Of a DNA stretch of 64,000 nucleotides, positions 9,840 to 39,093 are shown piece by piece. The DNA lies in the NCBI RefSeq assembly GCF_000336635.1, contig NZ_AOLY01000027.1, positions 1 through 64,000 on the forward strand. Reading direction: 5' to 3'. Position 1 is the first letter of the stretch. The number at the start of each line of letters is the position of its first letter. A program made the translations under genes and the position numbers. This stretch comes from Haloarcula japonica DSM 6131 (lineage in GTDB: Archaea > Halobacteriota > Halobacteria > Halobacteriales > Haloarculaceae). The notes beneath the pieces were generated by a model. The model made no database searches and was not told where the DNA came from. It saw nothing but the letters and a program-made list of their open reading frames with translations.

Positions 9840-10238
9840 GTGACTGACGATCTCGCGTATCCCTCTGTCGAACTCATCCTTGAGCTCCACGACCAGGTCG
9901 TGACAGAAGGCGACATCACGGAACCGGGGGTCCGGTCAGAGGACGCGATTGCATCCGCACTACAGTACGTTTCGGAGGGGTTCTTCGGGGAAGTGCCTGA
10001 GACGATCCATCAAAAGGCGGTCCATCTGATGCGACTACTCGTTTCGGAGCATCCGTTCGTCGACGGAAACAAGCGAACGGCACTCCGAACAGTGGTCGTT
10101 TTCTATATGCTGAACGGATACACGTTTGAGTACGGTGATGAAATCCGAGCGCTCTTACACCGGTTTGCGACCGGCGAAACCACAGTCGACGTAGACACTG
10201 CAGTCATCTACTTCCGGGCATGTGCTCGCCGCAACTGA
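9840..10238 (+). CDS. Fic/Doc-family protein
   Basis: A 132-residue protein of the Doc (death-on-curing) branch of the Fic family. The signature H-P-F-V-D-G-N-K-R-T-A spans residues 71-81. Doc-type proteins modify elongation factor Tu by phosphorylation, and canonical Fic proteins transfer AMP; which applies here is not decided by sequence. A GTG at 9840 is the likely start. The antitoxin is not obvious: the small gene at 10273 just downstream is the candidate. Plasmid location fits an addiction module. Confidence 0.85.
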   Translation: MTDDLAYPSVELILELHDQVVTEGDITEPGVRSEDAIASALQYVSEGFFGEVPETIHQKAVHLMRLLVSEHPFVDGNKRTALRTVVVFYMLNGYTFEYGDEIRALLHRFATGETTVDVDTAVIYFRACARRN

Positions 10239-12560: not shown

Positions 12561-13046
12561 TTAACAGAGACACTCGTGGCGCACTTGGCTCGCGTTGATC
12601 AAATCTTGATGAACATCGGTGGCAAGTTCGTGCATCGCCTTTGCTTGCGATTCAGTGGCAATTCCGAGCCGGTAGTAGGTTTTTGTTCGGTTCTGGTTCC
12701 ATAGTTCAGCTAATCGTTCCCCAAACGCGTCATCATAGAGTCCGATCTCTGCACCTCGCTGGTACAGTCGCCGATGACTACTGATGACTTCAGAAGCGTC
12801 CATTGCGCCGTCGTGGATGAGTCGGAACTGGATCGTCCGCTCTATCGCAACGAACGACGACTCGATGACAACTGTGTAGTAGCCACCATCAAGCAGGCGG
12901 GACGCAGCTGCCAGAAGCCGACATGCTCGGCGAAGTTGGACCAATTCGGCTTCGTCGACATCGAGCCCGTCCTCAACATTCTGTGGTGTCTGCTCGAAAC
13001 TACGCTCAGCGGCTGCCAGTGCGTTAAGCACTGATTCATTCTCCAT
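12561..13046 (-). CDS. HEPN-domain protein, putative toxin of MNT/HEPN pair
   Basis: A 161-residue all-helical protein of HEPN type. HEPN toxins are RNases with an R-x4-6-H motif; here the matching place reads N-R-T-K-T-Y-Y (Arg120, Tyr124/Tyr125), so the canonical His is replaced by Tyr. In characterised MNT/HEPN pairs a nearby Tyr is the residue AMPylated by the MNT antitoxin, but the missing His is odd. The gene overlaps the MNT gene by 11 bp in one operon. Identification rests on pairing, length and motif position. Confidence 0.75.
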   Translation of the reverse strand: MENESVLNALAAAERSFEQTPQNVEDGLDVDEAELVQLRRACRLLAAASRLLDGGYYTVVIESSFVAIERTIQFRLIHDGAMDASEVISSHRRLYQRGAEIGLYDDAFGERLAELWNQNRTKTYYRLGIATESQAKAMHELATDVHQDLINASQVRHECLC

Positions 13047-13704
13047 TCGCGTACACCTCCGCCCGGATATTGGATAACTGATCTGTCCCGACTAATATCA
13101 GTCCCTCATCGAACTGCTGTTGGAGCCGGTCACCAATCCGTTTCGCGCTTTCGGTCGATTCGACCAACGTTTCGAAGGTGTAGCGGTTCCCCTCAAATTT
13201 CGTCTCTTGGAGAGTGCTTACGATTGACTGAACAGTTCGGCGAGCCTGTGTCCTATCGTCTTCGACGAAGACAAGAAGATCGATATCACTTGCGCGGTCG
13301 GCTGTCCCCCGTGCCACGCTACCGAAAAGCAGGACGCCGACGAGATGGTCAATCTCTTCCTGAACAGTATCGACGAAGGCCCGGACAGGCTTGTGAAATT
13401 CCGACTGGGGGATCGACAGGACTGGATCAGATTTTGTGAGTCGGTCACGATGGATACGCACGTATTGCTTCCGGCCTTCTTTACGGGTCTGAACTGTGCC
13501 GAGTTCTTTGAGCAGTTTGACTGCCTTTGAGACCGTTGCCTGATTCCCGTCAATCATTTCCGCGAGTTGGCCGATGGTGAACTCTTCATATGGCTCCTCA
13601 ATCAAGCGAGCGAGCACATCCTGCATCGCCTGATATCGAAAGACCCGGTCCTGAGGGAACGGATACTCCAGAGCAATTGTGGTCGTTCCTTTCGTAGTAG
13701 GCAT
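13036..13704 (-). CDS. MNT nucleotidyltransferase with N-terminal winged HTH, putative antitoxin
   Basis: A 222-residue protein. Residues ~25-90 form a winged helix-turn-helix (F-T-I-G-Q-L-A-E-M followed by N-Q-A-T-V-S-K-A-V-K-L-L). Residues ~118-150 carry the minimal nucleotidyltransferase signature L-F-G-S-V-A-R-G (Gly128-Ser129), then D-I-D (Asp140, Asp142). MNT antitoxins neutralise partner HEPN RNases by AMPylating them. The fused HTH suggests it also binds the palindrome directly upstream of its own start codon. It overlaps the HEPN gene. Confidence 0.88.
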   Translation of the reverse strand: MPTTKGTTTIALEYPFPQDRVFRYQAMQDVLARLIEEPYEEFTIGQLAEMIDGNQATVSKAVKLLKELGTVQTRKEGRKQYVRIHRDRLTKSDPVLSIPQSEFHKPVRAFVDTVQEEIDHLVGVLLFGSVARGTADRASDIDLLVFVEDDRTQARRTVQSIVSTLQETKFEGNRYTFETLVESTESAKRIGDRLQQQFDEGLILVGTDQLSNIRAEVYANGE

Positions 13705-14783: not shown

Positions 14784-14791
14784 TCTTTAAG
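14784..14791 (+). promoter_or_regulatory. Possible TATA box for the structured leader
   Basis: TCTTTAAG lies about 25 bp upstream of the first base of the three-way-junction structure at 14815, so a transcript started at the usual archaeal distance would begin at the foot of that structure. Confidence 0.4.
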
Positions 14792-14814
14792 TAGTCGGCA
14801 CCCATGCCTTTAGG

Positions 14815-14904
14815 TACGGAAAGACACGACGCACGCGGCGCTGGCAGGGCAGTTTCACGCCGCAGAAATCGGGTGTAGCAGCACCCGACAAGTGTCTTTC
14901 CGTA
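14815..14904 (+). ncRNA. Putative three-way-junction structured leader RNA
   Basis: The outer stem is a perfect 13-bp pair (TACGGAAAGACAC at 14815-14827, GTGTCTTTCCGTA at 14892-14904). Inside it are two more stems: GCGGCG/CGCCGC (14835-14840 with 14858-14863) and CGGGTG/CACCCG (14870-14875 with 14882-14887). The ATG of the OB-fold gene is 16 bases downstream. The layout resembles a riboswitch or autoregulatory mRNA leader; a DNA cruciform is also possible. No known family is recognised. Confidence 0.6.
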
Positions 14905-14920
14905 TGGGAACTGAAAGACA

Positions 14921-16069
14921 ATGTACGCTACCAATTCCAGCGGTAAGAAAGCATCGGCAAGCAACCAGACGGTTTCTCTTTCGGCCCACGTCGAGGGTGG
15001 CCCCGAACAGCTTCTAGAGGCGGTTGCAGAGACGGAGAACGGCGACGAACTCGATTTCAGGATGAATCGGGGTAGCGATAGCCGTGGCAACTTCTACGCC
15101 CGACAGGAGGAAGCATACGACTGGACCCGCTCGACCGAGGTTGGTCCGGACCGGCGGTTTGGCGAAACGCTGGAACAGCAGGAAGAACGCCACGGGCGCG
15201 AAGCCGAGCAAGCCCGACACTCCGAGGTCGCACGCGCCCACGTCGACGGTGCCGACCGCGAAGCCTCGGCTCGCCAGCTCACCGACGCGGAAACCGGACG
15301 GGCTGACGGGTTCCGTTCCCCGGCTGACCCCCGGCAGTGGATGGACCGCGACACGCTGGCGCGAGTCAACCAGCAGGCCGCGACGCTGGCAGACAAAACC
15401 AGCCTGTCACGAGCGGCAGCAGGCCGCCGACTCGCGGCCCTTGTGTCCGGGCAGATGGGCGACTGTAACAGCCTGTATGAGGCTTCCTTTACCGTCTTAG
15501 ACGAGGCCCAGAGCGAACTGGCAACTCCCACGCCTATCGCGGATGTCTCGCCCTACGGCTACGAGTGTACGGTTGAAGGCGAAGTAACGCACATCATCGC
15601 GGAGCCAGACGCGCGGAACCAGTACCAAGTCCTCTATATCGAGGACGACGAGGGCACGAGCGCGAAGGTCACGGTCTGGGGCAAATCCATGCACGGCGGC
15701 GAGATGGTGCGCACGCTTCACGAGGGCGACCGGGTGCGAATCTCCGGGGGCAAGCCAGACGACTACAACGGTATCAAGACGGTGGCGGTCACGAGCGACA
15801 CGCTCATGTGCATCATCGAGCGTGGCGACGGTCCCGCGCCTACCGGACACGGGGGCGGCTCGTTCGGTTCGTCCGGCGATAGTCGAACGGCGGCGTCATG
15901 GGAAGCAGAGTCAGACACCCATCAGTGGGCCAACGAGCGGGATTCTGACCGCGCGGTCGCCGTGACGCTCGGGAAGGCCCGCTGTCCCGAGTCCGGGTGT
16001 TCGGACCTGTTCGACACTGAGCATGGAGCCGCCACCCATCAGGGTCTCGTCCACTCCGAAGCAGACTAA
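14921..16069 (+). CDS. OB-fold nucleic-acid-binding protein with C2H2 zinc finger
   Basis: A 382-residue protein. The first ~190 residues are acidic and helical with a basic-charged middle. Residues ~205-290 form an OB fold of the tRNA-anti/RPA type (Y-E-C-T-V-E-G-E-V-T-H-I-I, then D-D-E-G-T-S-A-K-V-T-V-W-G, then L-H-E-G-D-R-V-R-I). A glycine/serine-rich linker follows, and the C-terminus has a C2H2 finger (C-P-E-S-G-C with H-Q-G-L-V-H). It probably binds single-stranded DNA, perhaps in plasmid replication or transfer. The upstream structured leader suggests post-transcriptional or self regulation. Confidence 0.82.
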   Translation: MYATNSSGKKASASNQTVSLSAHVEGGPEQLLEAVAETENGDELDFRMNRGSDSRGNFYARQEEAYDWTRSTEVGPDRRFGETLEQQEERHGREAEQARHSEVARAHVDGADREASARQLTDAETGRADGFRSPADPRQWMDRDTLARVNQQAATLADKTSLSRAAAGRRLAALVSGQMGDCNSLYEASFTVLDEAQSELATPTPIADVSPYGYECTVEGEVTHIIAEPDARNQYQVLYIEDDEGTSAKVTVWGKSMHGGEMVRTLHEGDRVRISGGKPDDYNGIKTVAVTSDTLMCIIERGDGPAPTGHGGGSFGSSGDSRTAASWEAESDTHQWANERDSDRAVAVTLGKARCPESGCSDLFDTEHGAATHQGLVHSEAD

Positions 16070-18324: not shown

Positions 18325-20550
18325 TCACATGAACTCAGATGGCCTGCGTCGCTCTCCGCTTGCCTCAGTTTCGTCCCGTTCTTCACTCTTGTCAGTATCA
18401 GCCTCCGTGTCCGATTCAGCAGGCGATTCACTCTCCTCCTTCTCAGCAGAGTCCGTCTCGTCACTGCTGTGATCTGGGACCGTCTCAGGGGAGTGGTCGC
18501 CATCGTCATCGGACAGCTGTTGGTCCTGATCCGCGCCACCAGAGTTACCCTCTAAATCTGATATATCTGGGTGGTCTGTGTCCGGAGACGTGACGGCAGT
18601 GTTCGCTGTTGTCTGGTCGAGTGGGTCGCCCGACTCGTCGTCGCCCAACCCGTCTGTCGCGTCGACGGTCGGCTCGACTTCGGAGTCACGATCCGACCCA
18701 CTCTCTCCGGACTCATCATCGTCGTCCTCACCAAGTGACCCACGAAGCACATCGTCGAGCCGAGCCCGGGTGAACGAGAACCAACTGTCGCTCTCGATGT
18801 CGGTGTCATCGTCAGTGGGTTCCGGCTCCGAACTGCCCGGCGACTCCGCACCCTGTGCCGGGAGGCTATCGCGAACGTCGTCTAGTTCGTAGGACTGCCC
18901 GTGGACCCACGTCGTCCGAGAGACAGCAACGCACTCACCGGGCTGAAAGTCACGGAGCAGACCAGAGGTGACCGGCGTTTTGTCCTTCTCTTTGTACGTG
19001 TCCCGAGCCTGCGTCCGTGGGTTCTCGCCGCGCCCTTGATGGCTCATCGACACCATCTCGGACCGGTCATACTGCCGACTCTCGCCGAGTTCGTCGAGGA
19101 TAAAGTCCGTCGACTCGCTGTCACCCGGACCGAAGTAAACGCCTTGCGGGCAGTTGCCGACAATGCCAGAGATTGTACTGTACGTGTCCTTGAGTTGGCC
19201 GATTGTTTGCACGCCGACTAGTGCCCGAGCCTTGTGTTTCCGCCCTCGGGCGGTAAGGTTCGTCACCTGAGTAAGCGCCGGCAGCGCGTCAATCTCGTCG
19301 AGGATGTGGACCGTCGGATTCGAGGCGTTCATCGCGTAGCGGATCGACCAGTCCACGAGCAGCTGATACATCGGCCCGAGCGTTTCCAGTTCCGTCGGGT
19401 TCGAGTCGATGATGAGGACTCGGCCTTCCGGGTTCTCGATATATTCTTGCAGTGAGAACTCCCCGTAGTCTCCGAAGTCACCAGTGAAGACGGGGTCGAC
19501 GTTCTCTTTGATCGTTTGGTAGACGTTCTGTGCGCCTTTGCCTTTATCAGGGTCGATATGACCCGAATCCGGCCGGTCGAACTCGTCAAGCGCTTTCTTG
19601 AGCGCGATGTGGCCCTCGTTGAGCAGCGAGACGATATCGGCGTGACAGAGAGCATGGCGGCGACTGTTCTTTTTCGCGCTGAGATGCAGGTACATCAGCA
19701 TCTCCGCGAAGGTCTGTTTGGCGGGCCGATGGAATGGGTCGTGGCCGTCGGCTTCGCCGAAGATCGCGCCGGCGACCTCACGGAAGTCCGACTCTGAATC
19801 GGCGTCCTTGAACAGATTCCAGACTACGTCGCTATCTTCGTGGCGGATGCGCTGAACCTCAAAGCCCAGCTCCTCGTAGAATGCTTGAAAGTCCTCGCCG
19901 GTATCGTGAGCAATGACCGCCGTGTCACTGTAGTACGGGAACTGGTAAGCCAGTAGTTTCATCATCGACGTCTTCCCGCTTCCAGTCTCGCCCACGACGG
20001 CTGTGGAGACATCTTGATCGAGCGTGAACGGCATCTCTGTGTCGTTGTGTTCGTGAGAGACTTCTTCGAGCGGGACAACGGACTCCCCGTCGTCATGCTC
20101 CCACTGGTTCATCGCGAGCATTTCCGGCGAGGTCCGGCGGAGTAGTTCCCCAGAGAACACGATACCGATTGAGATGGCATACAGGATTACCGTGGTCGAG
20201 TACGAGAGCATCGGCAGCGATAGCCCCGGCACGGTGAAGTCAGCGAATAGTGTTCCGACTGAGATGGCAGCCAGAACGTGTGCGAACGGGAACAACAGCG
20301 CTGCGCTGGGTGTCTGGACAAGCACGTCGTAGAAGAACGCCGCGCTGATGAGTCCAAAGCCGAGGTAAATGTAGCGCCACGCCCAGAACCGCTTCGGAAG
20401 GACCTTGTCACTATCGACGATCATCGGTGGGAAAAGCAGCATGAACCCGGCCCAGACGAACCCGACGACGTTGTCGTACTTGAGGCTATTCGGGACTTCG
20501 CCAGAGCGTTGTCCCGGTGGTGCAGAGGAACTAGAACTCACTGCCACCAC
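18325..20550 (-). CDS. virD4: VirD4/TraD-like type IV coupling protein
   Basis: A 741-residue ATPase of the conjugative coupling-protein family, which docks the relaxase-DNA complex to the transfer channel. Four membrane segments lie in the first ~135 residues. Walker A is G-E-T-G-S-G-K-T-S (187-195) and Walker B is V-H-I-L-D-E-I-D (414-421), followed by T-A-R-G-R and a Q-T sensor-like segment. The last ~180 residues are an acidic Ser/Glu/Asp-rich tail typical of haloarchaea. The start overlaps the relaxase gene by 13 bp, and it is the last gene of the transfer operon. Confidence 0.9.
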   Translation of the reverse strand: MVAVSSSSSAPPGQRSGEVPNSLKYDNVVGFVWAGFMLLFPPMIVDSDKVLPKRFWAWRYIYLGFGLISAAFFYDVLVQTPSAALLFPFAHVLAAISVGTLFADFTVPGLSLPMLSYSTTVILYAISIGIVFSGELLRRTSPEMLAMNQWEHDDGESVVPLEEVSHEHNDTEMPFTLDQDVSTAVVGETGSGKTSMMKLLAYQFPYYSDTAVIAHDTGEDFQAFYEELGFEVQRIRHEDSDVVWNLFKDADSESDFREVAGAIFGEADGHDPFHRPAKQTFAEMLMYLHLSAKKNSRRHALCHADIVSLLNEGHIALKKALDEFDRPDSGHIDPDKGKGAQNVYQTIKENVDPVFTGDFGDYGEFSLQEYIENPEGRVLIIDSNPTELETLGPMYQLLVDWSIRYAMNASNPTVHILDEIDALPALTQVTNLTARGRKHKARALVGVQTIGQLKDTYSTISGIVGNCPQGVYFGPGDSESTDFILDELGESRQYDRSEMVSMSHQGRGENPRTQARDTYKEKDKTPVTSGLLRDFQPGECVAVSRTTWVHGQSYELDDVRDSLPAQGAESPGSSEPEPTDDDTDIESDSWFSFTRARLDDVLRGSLGEDDDDESGESGSDRDSEVEPTVDATDGLGDDESGDPLDQTTANTAVTSPDTDHPDISDLEGNSGGADQDQQLSDDDGDHSPETVPDHSSDETDSAEKEESESPAESDTEADTDKSEERDETEASGERRRPSEFM

Positions 20551-21293
20551 CCGACTTCGCGTTCGGGTTCCTGCTCGCGTTCAATATCAACTTCGGGTTC
20601 GCGTTCAGTTGCCGCCTGTTCTTCGGCTCTCTCCGCAGCACGTTCTGAGAGTGGTTCAGTTTGGCGCTCATCGTTCGCTTTCTCAGCCGTGGGCTGGCCG
20701 ACGTCTTTCTGCTGGCTCTTCTCAGTCGCCCGTTTGAGCGCTTTTTCTGCTTCGGGGTTCAGCGATAGTTCTTCCTCATGGTACTGCTCCCGTGCTTCTT
20801 CATCCACGACCCGACCGATGTCCTCCGGAGAATCACTGGCGGCAGCCGTTGGGTCACGCGTTCGAGCGGGTTCTTCAAACGCGGTTTCCGCCCGTTCACT
20901 GAGTTTCTGGATGTCTTCTAAATCCATTTCCAGCTCTGCCTGCTTCCCAGTAGCTGCGACATGTGCATGTGGAAAGTCTGTATCCCGGTGGACAGCATAC
21001 ACATAGTCGGTTGTCGGCTGGCGGGCAAACTCTTGGTTCATTACGTCCCGAGTGTTGGTCTGAACCTCTTGGGGAGAATACTGTCCAGTCGGATCTGGCG
21101 AAACGATCAGATGCCGCTGGAATCCGAACTCTTGACTCTTGTCGACAAATCGGTCTACTTCTGGGTCGGAGAGTTCTCGGCCGGCCGGGTTCCGTAGATC
21201 AACTGTCGCTCCGGCATCCTGGTCTCGGTCACGGCGAATATAATCGACGAGGTTCCCTGCTCCGCTCTGCTGATAGTCCGTTTCTACAATCAT
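20538..21293 (-). CDS. HUH-type conjugative relaxase (Mob)
   Basis: A 251-residue relaxase domain protein. The metal-binding HUH motif reads H-R-D-T-D-F-P-H-A-H-V (102-112), the motif III arrangement of MobP/MobQ-type relaxases. N-L-V-D-Y-I-R-R-D near the N-terminus supplies a candidate catalytic Tyr18, and H-L-I-V-S-P-D-P (61-68) matches the strand usual between motifs. The C-terminal ~130 residues are a charged tail, so there is no fused helicase or primase. It would nick the transfer origin and lead the strand to the coupling protein encoded next. Confidence 0.87.
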   Translation of the reverse strand: MIVETDYQQSGAGNLVDYIRRDRDQDAGATVDLRNPAGRELSDPEVDRFVDKSQEFGFQRHLIVSPDPTGQYSPQEVQTNTRDVMNQEFARQPTTDYVYAVHRDTDFPHAHVAATGKQAELEMDLEDIQKLSERAETAFEEPARTRDPTAAASDSPEDIGRVVDEEAREQYHEEELSLNPEAEKALKRATEKSQQKDVGQPTAEKANDERQTEPLSERAAERAEEQAATEREPEVDIEREQEPEREVGWWQ

Positions 21294-21763
21294 GCGCCAT
21301 CACCCGCTGCGCCGGCGGACCCCTGTCCGTCTTCGCTGCTACTGCCTTCCCCTGCAGGAATCGCTTCGGACTCAGTGTTGAGCTCCTGTCCAGTGAACCG
21401 TTCAGCAAACTTCATCGCAAGCTGTTGCTCGGCAGTAGAGTAGTCGTCTTTAATCAGCTTCCAGATTGAGATAAGATACGCTGTCCGCACTCTCTGGATG
21501 TGCCGTACTTCCTCGAGTGTTTCAGACTCAAATTGGTCCAGAGTCTCCCCCAGTTCCTCCTTAAGAGAGTCCAAAATGACTTCTATCTCAGTATCAGTTC
21601 CATACCGGCCGTACTGATGCTCCCCAGTTTCACGGTCAATGTGATCCTCAATCATCTCATGACCATACTCCGAGATTGACGTATCCTCTTCATCGGCTAG
21701 TTGTTCAAGCCACTCCCGATTTTCGTCAGTCGTATAGATCTGAATGACAGTTCTCTCACTCAT
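21290..21763 (-). CDS. Ribbon-helix-helix relaxosome accessory protein
   Basis: A 157-residue protein. The N-terminus is RHH-like (T-V-I-Q-I-Y-T-T-D-E-N-R-E-W-L, then S-I-S-E-Y-G-H-E-M-I), followed by an extended helical, acidic region and a Gly/Ser/Glu-rich tail. Position between another RHH gene and the relaxase, with 4-bp ATGA overlaps on both sides, points to a MobC-like role: binding the transfer origin and loading the relaxase. This is inferred from context. Confidence 0.75.
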   Translation of the reverse strand: MSERTVIQIYTTDENREWLEQLADEEDTSISEYGHEMIEDHIDRETGEHQYGRYGTDTEIEVILDSLKEELGETLDQFESETLEEVRHIQRVRTAYLISIWKLIKDDYSTAEQQLAMKFAERFTGQELNTESEAIPAGEGSSSEDGQGSAGAAGDGA

Positions 21764-22137
21764 TCTTGACCCTCCTTGTTACGGACGTTGTCTACCTCTT
21801 CCTGTAGCTTGTCTGTCGCTTCATCCATCGCAATAGCACGCTCCTCTGAGGAGTAGTCTGTCGAAATCAAGTCCCAGAGAGCTACTTCATAAGCCAACTC
21901 TTCAGTTGTCTCAATATCTGCTGCCTTGTTCACTTGCTCTGTCACACTCTCAGCGATCTGTTCCAGCTCTGGTTCCAGACCCAGTTCCTCCGCACGCTGA
22001 TCGTGCAGCTCACGGGCAATGCGTTGCTCCGTAGCTTTCAGGATATACTCCGATAGGTCTTCATCTACCTTCCGAGCCTGCCGTACTATCTGATCTCTCT
22101 CTTCTTCACTCATCCGTAGCGAGATTATGTCATTCAT
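21760..22137 (-). CDS. Ribbon-helix-helix (MobC-like) accessory protein
   Basis: A 125-residue protein opening with a clear RHH domain (I-I-S-L-R-M-S-E-E-E-R-D-Q-I, then D-L-S-E-Y-I-L-K-A-T). Helices follow with a D-Y-S-S-E-E-R-A-I-A-M motif that is echoed in the next protein (D-Y-S-T-A-E-Q-Q-L-A-M), so the two are diverged paralogues. They may act as a heterodimeric relaxosome factor. The gene overlaps its downstream neighbour by 4 bp and starts 5 bp after the VirB4 stop. Confidence 0.78.
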   Translation of the reverse strand: MNDIISLRMSEEERDQIVRQARKVDEDLSEYILKATEQRIARELHDQRAEELGLEPELEQIAESVTEQVNKAADIETTEELAYEVALWDLISTDYSSEERAIAMDEATDKLQEEVDNVRNKEGQE

Positions 22138-36127: not shown

Positions 36128-39093
36128 TCTTCCTTTGTCTCTGTAGAAGAGACGACATACGCCGCTGTTACTAATTCCGGTTCTTGGGGAGTAACATGCT
36201 TCTCTTCCTCAAGCCTGGATAGCTCCTCTTCACGTTCTCGTCGTAGACTCTCGAGCTTCTGCTTCGCGTTCCCAATCGGCGCGGACATATCCGCACCCTG
36301 CTCAGCACGGTGTTGGTACTGCTCTAACCGCTCTTCCCATTCTTCGATTTGCTCTTCGAAGTATCGCTCAGCGTGCTCACGTTTGATTTCGATCTCCCGT
36401 TCTCGTTCGGTTCGGGCCTCCTCGGCGAACGACTCAACGTGCGTCCATGCTTTCATCTCTGCAGCCTCGTAGAGATCCTCCGCCATACTCGAGAGCCGAT
36501 CAACCTCATGAGACGATGAGATATCGCTAAGAGCCGTCGTCTTCGAGAGCTCAGGAACATCAGTTGTCACACTACCATCTGGGCGAACAAAGAGACGAAC
36601 CAGCTTCTCGGTCACCACATCCCCAGCACCGGAGACGTAGCCAAGGCGGTAATTGAACAAGATTCCAGGGGTTTGAGACGCCGTCGCAGCGACCTTCGTC
36701 ACAATTTCACCCTGGATACGGTCGCCGTCCAGGCAGAATTCGATGAGCGACTCGACGAGAGGATGGTCCAGCGAAATGAACTCGACATCATCCTCCTCCA
36801 TCGCGATATCCTTGGTGAACGTGGCGCGTGGGTACTGTCGTGCTACCTGATTTCCACTCAGGACCTCAGGGACATCCAACTGGAACACGTCCCCTTCCAT
36901 CCGGGCCGGTCCGGGTCGAACACCCTTAATAGAGCCGCCGAATTCGCCGAAGAACACACGCACGAGCGTCTCGATATCGTCCTCAGACACCTCACCGTGT
37001 TGACTGCGTTCGATCACGTCGAGAATCTCATCGTCTTCGCCGGAGAGATCGAAGCGGTCGCGAATTAGGAACTCGTTTTCGACGGTCTGAATCGCCTCAC
37101 GTTTCTCCTCGATGGTCGCCTCGATATCGGCGACGACACGTTCAGTCGGCTCCCCTTCAGCAATGGCCGCCATAATCGTCTCGTCCAAGTCGACGTCCTC
37201 GAGGACGCGACCGAGGACATCAGAGCGCATCCCGAGGTCCGACTCGATCTGGTTCGTCTTCTCGATGAGCAGGTTGAGGATCTCGCTCTCGCGGGTATCG
37301 GCGAAGAAGAGATTCCGAATCTCGACCGTGTGCTCTTGGCCGTAGCGGTGGAGCCGCCCCATCCGCTGGTCGATCCGGATGGGATTCCATGGGAGGTCGT
37401 AGTTCACCATGATGTGGGCGAACTGTAGGTTGAGCCCCTCCTGGGCGGCGTCAGTCGCAAGCATCAGGTTGGCTTCCTCCTCGAATTTGCTCATCTCTTC
37501 CCGTCGACGGGACTGCTCGAGGTCGCCGTACACCTGGGCGACGTCGTGGTCAGCGAAGACCTCGTCACGTAGATACTCCAGCGTGTCCGTGTATTCGGTG
37601 AAGATTAGGATTTTCTCGTCGGGATCCTCTGAGAGAATGCGGTCGACGAACTGCCGGAGCAATCGGGCCTTCGAGTCCGTCTCGATGTTCTTGGCCTGCT
37701 GCCAGAGCTGTTTCACGCGGTCCAGTTCCTGCTGGACTTGCGACTGATTGAGCGTAATCGTGACTGTCTCAAGCGCCTCCTCGACCCGAGCGCGTTCCGC
37801 GTCAGTGAGCGTCTCGGGTTCGGTACTATACCGCGGAATGAGGTCCTGAACCTCATCTGGGAGGTCTTCGGCGACGGCGTCGTTCTGAATCGCCCGCATC
37901 CGGTTTTCAAGAGACTTCCGGATCGCGTAGATACTCGAGACTAGCCGCTTCTGGTAGATCACCATCGTGAACCCCGCCGCCTGGTTCTCCTCCTGCTGGG
38001 CGAGATTGTAGTACTCGCGGATGTACTCGGTGACGTCGTCGTACAGCTTCCGTTCCTCACGGGTCATCTCGACCGGCAGCGCCTCGATGTTCTTCTCGGG
38101 GAACATTCGGGTCCCGTCGGTCTCATACATATCGTCCTTCAGCCGCCGGATCATCAGATCCTCAAGCGCCTCGGGACTGATCTGTGACTCGTGGCTGAAG
38201 CGATACGGGTCGAGCAGGCTCACGAGGAAGTAGAACTGGTCCGACTTCCCCTTGTGGGGGGTCCCGGTGAGGAGGAGCAGTGAATCGGAGTTGTTGGCGA
38301 CCGCATCGCCGACTTTGTACCGCTCTGTCCGTTCGATTGAGTCGTCGCTCGACCGGCGGGCCGTGAGGTGATGGGCTTCGTCGAAGACCGCAACATCCCA
38401 CTCCTCGTCGAGGTTTTGGAGGGCATCGAGGACAGAGACGCGGTCCGACTCGGGGTCGTCGACGGTCTGCTTCGCGAAGTCGATGGAGGTGATAATGAGG
38501 TCCTCTTGCTTCCAGACGTTCTGGTTGGGGTGGGACTTCCGGTGTGTACGGACCGTCTCGCGGTCGTAGATGACGAAGTTGCGGTCGAACTTCTCGCGCA
38601 TCTCTTCTTGCCACTGGACGGTCAGCGGCGCCGGCGCAACGATGAGCACCCGGTCGGCCCGGTCACGGGCGATGAGCTCTTCGATGACGATGCCGGCTTC
38701 GATGGTCTTCCCGAGGCCGACCTCGTCGCCGATGAGGTAGCGGTGGTCGTAGGAGTTGAGGATTTCGTAGGCGGCCTGTACCTGGTACGGTTCGATCTCG
38801 ATGCGGTTGCTGGTCAGCGAGAGGAATCGATCGTACTTGTAGGCGAGATCCAGCCGGATCGCCCGCTCTCGAAGGTCGTAGTGGAGTGGGGCGTCGGACT
38901 GGCCTGCTGCGAGGCGATCGACGAGCGAGTCGAGTTTCTCGATGTGAGGGAGGCCGCTGGGGAGTTTGCGGAGCTGGCCCTCCGAGGTGTAGACGTGGAG
39001 GAGATGCCCACCGTTGGGCCGTTGCTCGATTTTCGTGATTTCTCCACGCCCGCCGGCGAACTTGACTTGATCGCCGACCTCGAAGTTAGTCAT
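36124..39093 (-). CDS. SNF2-family helicase of R-M/DISARM-like locus
   Basis: A 989-residue SF2 ATPase of the SNF2 type. Motif I is D-E-V-G-L-G-K-T (123-130) and motif II D-E-A-H (238-241); then L-L-T-G-T-P-H-K-G, and in the second RecA lobe A-A-Q-E-G-L-N-L-Q and D-Q-R-M-G-R-L-H-R-Y-G-Q. A helical acidic C-terminus follows. It resembles DrmD-type helicases, which translocate on DNA in class 1 DISARM, but drmA, drmB and drmC are not in this window. It is sandwiched between two TBP genes with 4-bp overlaps on both sides. Confidence 0.9.
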   Translation of the reverse strand: MTNFEVGDQVKFAGGRGEITKIEQRPNGGHLLHVYTSEGQLRKLPSGLPHIEKLDSLVDRLAAGQSDAPLHYDLRERAIRLDLAYKYDRFLSLTSNRIEIEPYQVQAAYEILNSYDHRYLIGDEVGLGKTIEAGIVIEELIARDRADRVLIVAPAPLTVQWQEEMREKFDRNFVIYDRETVRTHRKSHPNQNVWKQEDLIITSIDFAKQTVDDPESDRVSVLDALQNLDEEWDVAVFDEAHHLTARRSSDDSIERTERYKVGDAVANNSDSLLLLTGTPHKGKSDQFYFLVSLLDPYRFSHESQISPEALEDLMIRRLKDDMYETDGTRMFPEKNIEALPVEMTREERKLYDDVTEYIREYYNLAQQEENQAAGFTMVIYQKRLVSSIYAIRKSLENRMRAIQNDAVAEDLPDEVQDLIPRYSTEPETLTDAERARVEEALETVTITLNQSQVQQELDRVKQLWQQAKNIETDSKARLLRQFVDRILSEDPDEKILIFTEYTDTLEYLRDEVFADHDVAQVYGDLEQSRRREEMSKFEEEANLMLATDAAQEGLNLQFAHIMVNYDLPWNPIRIDQRMGRLHRYGQEHTVEIRNLFFADTRESEILNLLIEKTNQIESDLGMRSDVLGRVLEDVDLDETIMAAIAEGEPTERVVADIEATIEEKREAIQTVENEFLIRDRFDLSGEDDEILDVIERSQHGEVSEDDIETLVRVFFGEFGGSIKGVRPGPARMEGDVFQLDVPEVLSGNQVARQYPRATFTKDIAMEEDDVEFISLDHPLVESLIEFCLDGDRIQGEIVTKVAATASQTPGILFNYRLGYVSGAGDVVTEKLVRLFVRPDGSVTTDVPELSKTTALSDISSSHEVDRLSSMAEDLYEAAEMKAWTHVESFAEEARTEREREIEIKREHAERYFEEQIEEWEERLEQYQHRAEQGADMSAPIGNAKQKLESLRREREEELSRLEEEKHVTPQEPELVTAAYVVSSTETKEE

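Follow-up and report, generated by a model that had tools for sequence, protein, structure and literature searches.

The locus and its gene neighbourhood

The window, i.e., the whole stretch of 64,000 nucleotides that was analysed (Haloarcula japonica DSM 6131, contig NZ_AOLY01000027.1, positions 1 to 64,000), is a Haloarcula plasmid contig. It carries an ORF of 382 aa preceded by a folded leader. The features considered are the following:

14784-14791, plus strand: TATA-like element TCTTTAAG of the sense promoter, recognised from the sequence
14815-14827, plus strand: 5' arm of the outer stem P1, a helix of the sense RNA
14892-14904, plus strand: 3' arm of P1; within it, 14893-14900 has a second complement in the pre-AUG repeat
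14835-14863, plus strand: inner hairpin P2 (arms 14835-14840 and 14858-14863; 6 bp)
14869-14888, plus strand: inner hairpin P3 (stem 14869-14875/14882-14888; 7 bp)
14876-14881, plus strand: P3 loop TAGCAG, 6 nt, hypervariable
14901-14912, plus strand: linker CGTATGGGAACT, hypervariable, its first bases being part of P1
14913-14920, plus strand: pre-AUG repeat GAAAGACA, 8 nt, complementary to 14893-14900
14921-16069, plus strand: putatively controlled ORF, 382 aa, SOSS complex subunit B family (OB-fold-like) by annotation elsewhere
14943-14957, minus strand: antisense BRE/TATA-like motif CGATGCTTTCTTAC, inside ORF codons 8-13
14862-14921, minus strand: predicted antisense RNA of about 60 nt with two stem-loops, deduced from its fold, the strand asymmetry and the phiH1 start

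An earlier note on this DNA had described a three-way junction, and its geometry is found again with one correction. The outer stem of 13 bp (14815-14827 with 14892-14904) is 100% complementary. Of the two inner stems, both given as 6 bp, the first has this length while the second has 7 bp and encloses the 6-nt loop. The TATA-like box, placed about 25 bp upstream of the stem, lies 23 nt before P1, and the ATG at 14921 follows the stem end at 14904 by the 16 bases that were reported. Folding energy, a check proposed at that time, gives z values of −3.4 for 14800-14930 and −4.1 for 14813-14935 (0 of 200 shuffles as good). Three features had been overlooked: (i) the pre-AUG repeat; (ii) the hypervariable loop and linker; (iii) the antisense promoter-like motif within the ORF. 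Part of the P1 5' arm recurs as GAAAGACA, whose complement lies in the P1 3' arm.

The sense transcript is predicted to start at about 14813-14815, i.e., at the first base of P1. P3 should be able to form on both strands and is predicted to be the terminator-like second stem-loop of the antisense RNA. The linker beyond P1 is modelled as single-stranded in the sense leader and as the apical loop of antisense stem-loop 1.

The OB-fold/zinc-finger label first given to the ORF product is weakly supported: the match to Pfam REPA_OB_2 reaches 17.6 bits for a cut-off of 27, and the C-terminal Cys/His motif is absent from several homologues. The predicted structure (pLDDT 43.6) was excluded from the argument. 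A role of the ORF as replication initiator was considered and rejected, a sister plasmid carrying its own orc1/cdc6.

The gene is near relaxase and coupling-protein genes. A conjugation/mobilisation set, i.e., a Type IV coupling protein, a MobA/VirD2-like relaxase and a NikA-like gene, occupies 18325-22137 (minus strand) of the window; sister plasmids are typed non-mobilizable in PLSDB despite this set. On the other side, an HTH-nucleotidyltransferase gene and a small ORF at 12561-13704 (minus strand) resemble a MNT/HEPN toxin-antitoxin pair, and MNT/HEPN-like cassettes are also beside the locus in sister plasmids, at varying positions. The ORF at 9840-10238 (plus strand) has a HPFVDGNKRTAL motif and its counterpart is annotated as Doc/Fic-type in locus L006; judging from its sequence, it is likely a death-on-curing toxin of this type.

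Conservation of the leader and hypervariability of its loop and linker

Loci homologous to that of the window were found in Haloarcula plasmids such as pHH126, pNG500, pNYT1 and pHsi139. They were gathered via protein homology, not by RNA search, and 36 distinct leaders were aligned. Standard pairs represent 95.9% of the cells and double changes are found in 5 pairs. P1, P2 and P3 are paired in 98%, 88% and 100% of cells, respectively, and pairing collapses to 30-50% when the register is slid. P3 is Watson-Crick in 252 of 252 cells, with no G-U and with double changes in 3 pairs. The spacing between the TATA-like box and P1 is conserved in the homologues as well, and the BRE/TATA motif keeps the same spacing throughout the wider class described below. 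The earlier note had named homologous leaders lacking the paired arms as the case speaking against it. The arms are kept in the 36 leaders, and the comparison with related plasmids that it proposed yields preserved stems with compensatory changes in P1, P2 and P3. The structured leader is confirmed as real.

In L044, which comes from another genus and precedes a distant homologue of the OB protein, a hairpin loop GTAGTAG faces TTACTAC directly 5' of the ATG. On this sequence, a direct pairing between the hairpin loop and the start region would be possible.

The divergence of the leader was compared in 52 leader pairs with a fourfold-site divergence of 0.08-0.15 (mean 0.125). Differing sites amount to 63% in the P3 loop and 64% in the linker vs. 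1.3% in the remaining leader. The combinations of loop and linker are distinct in 36 of 36 leaders. Most P3 loops read CTNNNA or, in reverse complement, TNNNAG, and three loops are found in both orientations (e.g., L004/L055, L012/L006 and L018/L060). The presence of both orientations in otherwise near-identical leaders suggests small inversions between the hairpin arms. That the two variable segments, loop and linker, pair with each other was also considered; this is ruled out since they change independently by recombination (e.g., L025/L027 and L033/L056).

Loops found as their own reverse complement are what is expected of inversion between arms in a DNA-level element, i.e., a cruciform, a hairpin of a replication or transfer origin, or a recombinase site with variable spacer, and the arms of P3 form a perfect inverted repeat around a variable centre of 6 bp. 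Such an element is nevertheless very unlikely. The leaders are placed between the promoter and the start codon of diverse genes, and P1 and the second helix described below have opposite strand-specific wobble, which is unexpected for DNA hairpins.

A typical sign of specific RNA recognition in bacterial antisense systems is a set of hypervariable contact sites carried by conserved stems. The leaders of related plasmids here combine conserved stems with variable loops, as incompatibility determinants do. In the case of ColE1, diversified loops alone can yield compatible plasmids (PMC9458437). We infer that the hypervariability reflects selection for plasmid-specific recognition, of the incompatibility or immunity-like kind. 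Co-resident plasmids with the same loop represent 1 of 18 pairs vs. 3.8% expected, so that co-residence is uninformative on incompatibility. It must be noticed that Haloarcula sp. CBA1115 has a co-resident plasmid pair with identical loop and different linker.

Strands of the two helices, antisense promoter signature and breadth of the class

The P1 3' arm has a second complementary partner, the pre-AUG repeat. This second helix is paired in 98.3% of the cells, with double changes in 2 pairs. Across the class, its complementarity is 17.0 vs. 13.1 +/- 0.43 in permuted pairings (0 of 500).

A G-U pair is tolerated in an RNA helix, and the same change reads A-C in the complement. The departures were counted in 38 nonredundant elements, GU and AC being treated alike in the scoring. 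They are GU 43/AC 13 in P1 and AC 23/GU 3 in the second helix (Fisher p = 2.5e-8), with P1 inside the covariance model, which may partly favour GU, and the second helix outside it. The excess of G-U in P1 is also found in the protein-collected Haloarcula set (40 G-U pairs). The departures in P1 are mainly GU, thus P1 is a helix of the sense RNA. Those of the second helix are AC and rarely GU, thus it is a hairpin of the RNA of the opposite strand. Both structures and their strands are established in this way, at the level of sequence comparison.

The second helix could also be understood within the sense RNA alone, as a switch responding to a ligand or a protein: the P1 3' arm would pair with the 5' arm in the ON state and with the pre-AUG repeat in the OFF state. 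The alternative helix is indeed kept with compensatory changes, and two sister pairs, L009/L010 and L035/L040, show joint changes of the pre-AUG repeat and the 3' arm with an unchanged 5' arm. This switch is nevertheless improbable: the excess of A-C over G-U in the second helix is that of a helix of the complementary RNA, and both the promoter-like motif of the ORF and the hypervariable loops are left unexplained.

The antisense promoter signature lies inside the ORF. In the Haloarcula gene, synonymous identity is 0.97 in the first 12 codons vs. about 0.65 elsewhere. Among 40 nonredundant ORF starts (<70% identity, unrelated N-termini), positions +26..+37 have the consensus A[AT][AG]A[AG]N[GC]TNYCG, with a conservation of 78% for C36, 95% for G37 and 90% for A29. 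This motif lies beyond the models by which the elements were collected, whose 3' limit is about 9 nt past the ATG. A promoter matrix trained exclusively on sense upstream sequences was then run on the minus strand of the ORFs, where it gives a single peak at +26..+39 (1.88 vs. a mean of −14.7, sd 3.6). With the antisense promoter score, the elements stand apart from 168 control ORFs taken from the same plasmids (p = 3.9e-19). In the window, the motif scores 12.1 at ORF +23..+36, i.e., in the top 0.002% of window positions. The antisense TATA is weaker than the sense TATA. From the spacing of the sense promoter, the antisense start is predicted at about ORF +1.

Early codons are often A-rich, and the motif falls in codons 8-13, as a translation-enhancing or codon-ramp signal might. 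We consider such a signal very unlikely, for the following reasons: (i) the motif is found in 1.8% of the 168 control ORFs vs. 100% of the elements; (ii) the CG at +36/+37 is near-invariant and the sense matrix is matched only on the minus strand; (iii) the mapped antisense start of phiH1 is at the expected distance from the motif.

The antisense promoter would drive a short RNA. Across the class, the minus strand has a T-tract 3' of P3 (73, 70, 77 and 57% of T at positions 4-7), thus P3 would be terminator-like for an RNA of about 60 nt. The fold of the predicted RNA has −23.2 kcal/mol and z −4.5 (0 of 200 shuffles as good). A trans-encoded partner was also searched for: the stems do not recur elsewhere in the window, and the only minus-strand match of the covariance model R2 is P3 itself.

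The breadth of the class was evaluated by means of covariance models. The first one, built on the 36 aligned leaders, recovered this layout in further families, ahead of other genes. The second one, R2, was built from 20 sequences. R2 matches are present in 175 of 391 Halobacteria genomes and 62 of 86 genera, with up to 9 per genome, at a threshold of E <= 0.005 per genome for which about 2 false genomes are expected, the E-values being rough. In all, 94 loci were read. The downstream ORFs code for small SWIM zinc-finger proteins, a family of about 102 aa, small Cys-rich proteins and others; the SWIM relatives are also found on plasmids. Viral contigs, searched by protein and by DNA pattern, gave no related locus.

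A riboswitch, or autoregulation by the encoded OB/zinc-finger protein, had been proposed in the earlier note. The conserved, structured and promoter-proximal regulatory leader remains from this proposal, and the protein is of a nucleic-acid-binding type. On the contrary, the riboswitch and the self-binding are not retained and have become hardly credible. The same leader is found ahead of the many unrelated proteins listed above, thus it is not tied to one protein. Instead of being conserved, the linker and the most exposed loop are hypervariable, and Rfam gave chance matches only, both at the gathering threshold and at E up to 10. None of the catalogued RNA families matches the module.

Some particular elements are worth describing. 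The host genome (G000) has two further ones, on contigs C35 (131710-131818) and C33 (33867-33953), the former preceding a SWIM zinc-finger gene. At G007:C61:9433-9510, a partial second copy adjoins a complete element, either by tandem duplication or as an assembly artefact. In many SWIM-type elements (L092, L119, L131, L136, L111 and others), palindromes like TAACCACGTAGTTA and GACTTCGAGGTTA flank the sense TATA box, about 45-15 nt upstream of P1, and are operator-like in appearance.

The proposed module and its comparison with known systems

The locus is probably an overlapping sense/antisense RNA module in which an antisense RNA controls the gene. We infer that this RNA is made in the window plasmid and represses the gene. 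The module could operate as follows. The sense BRE/TATA promoter would start the mRNA at the first base of P1, and the leader of about 106 nt would fold into the three-way junction P1, P2 and P3, followed by a short single-stranded linker and the pre-AUG repeat. A second BRE/TATA promoter, on the opposite strand of codons 8-13, would start a short RNA facing the AUG. In this RNA, the complements of the P1 3' arm and the pre-AUG repeat would pair to form stem-loop 1, whose loop would be the linker; P3 and its 6-nt loop would make up stem-loop 2, which is terminator-like with the U-tract that follows. Pairing would be initiated by loop-loop and loop-linker contacts; full pairing would then cover the AUG and open P1. 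The outcome would most likely be translation shut-off and/or exposure of the mRNA to a double-strand RNase, as has been reported of phiH T1/Tant. Each plasmid's RNA would mainly recognise its own mRNA, because the contact sites evolve far faster than their surroundings. The module might serve incompatibility, immunity against a further element or the control of transfer.

RNA-based self/non-self recognition between plasmids is a textbook topic for bacteria. To our knowledge, archaea offer next to nothing comparable. The present family, found in nearly half of the Halobacteria genomes sampled and with loops that evolve much faster than neutral sites, provides an archaeal system that is defined and testable. 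It is rather likely that the class is a large archaeal sense/antisense family with face-to-face promoters and hypervariable recognition loops, acting as private RNA locks on key genes of mobile elements in incompatibility or superinfection immunity; phiH Tant would then be its sole member studied so far, and the isolated observation of 1993 on phiH would gain a general family. For haloarchaeal genetics, the module could become a source of orthogonal RNA switches and of compatible plasmid markers.

Most mRNAs of haloarchaea have no leader, and structured leaders were considered untypical (PMC4983044). Cis-antisense RNAs are frequent in this group: 1244 antisense starts are documented in H. volcanii (PMC4983044), and in H. 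salinarum 145 asRNAs overlap the 5' end of a gene (PMC6523106). Tant of phiH had been described as well. The literature search, to which most subscription papers were out of reach, found no report of the module class or of its hypervariable loops.

The closest system is that of the transcripts T1 and T(ant) of halovirus phiH (Stolt and Zillig 1993, PMID 7683366). In phiH1 (MK002701), the mapped starts are 38582 for T1 and 38732 (minus strand) for T(ant), the ORF beginning at 38733; the 5' arm of the leader stem begins at the T1 start. The two systems have in common, the starts being mapped in phiH1 and predicted in the window plasmid: (i) a haloarchaeal host and a sense transcript starting from the first base of a strongly folded leader; (ii) an antisense RNA whose start faces the initiation codon of the first ORF; (iii) a short repeat of the 5' arm directly before the AUG. 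In the window, the antisense promoter motif is within the first 13 codons, and the sense transcript would begin at a long-range stem, according to the structure and the TATA spacing. The antisense matrix, trained without phiH1, has its best match at ORF +24..+37 in phiH1 (score 3.07, top 0.35% of positions) and likewise at ORF +24..+37 in phiCh1 (score 7.75). The R2 model gives no match in phiH1 at E up to 5. The kinship thus rests on geometry and promoter motif: the same way of working is meant, common descent not being claimed as proven. The binding of Tant reportedly turns T1 into a substrate of a host RNase, which removes the ribosome-binding region (PMC4284463). However, the phiH leader has about 150 nt and is devoid of a P3 with 6-nt loop, the hairpin before the 3' arm having a 4-nt loop; the length given for Tant is >151 nt vs. 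about 60 nt predicted here; the controlled phiH gene is PadR-like, and a hypervariable family had not been reported.

FinP/traJ of F-type plasmids is likewise a plasmid cis-antisense system in which the RNA has two stem-loops (PMC8136791). The second stem-loop is terminator-like with a U tail, the start region is covered, and the gene is beside conjugation genes. For the window, too, an RNA of two stem-loops is predicted, with a U-tract after the second one and complementarity to the start region. The window module differs in that it is archaeal, unrelated in sequence and found before many gene types, with a promoter inside the ORF and a three-way junction as target.

With ColE1 RNAI/RNAII and CopA/CopT, the module shares variable loops on conserved stems, the likely determinant of specificity between related plasmids. 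Those systems control replication, whereas the gene here is not known to serve replication and a sister plasmid has its own orc1/cdc6. By sequence and analogy, the best reading is thus a widespread and uncatalogued archaeal counterpart of FinP/traJ, which would work like phiH T1/Tant.
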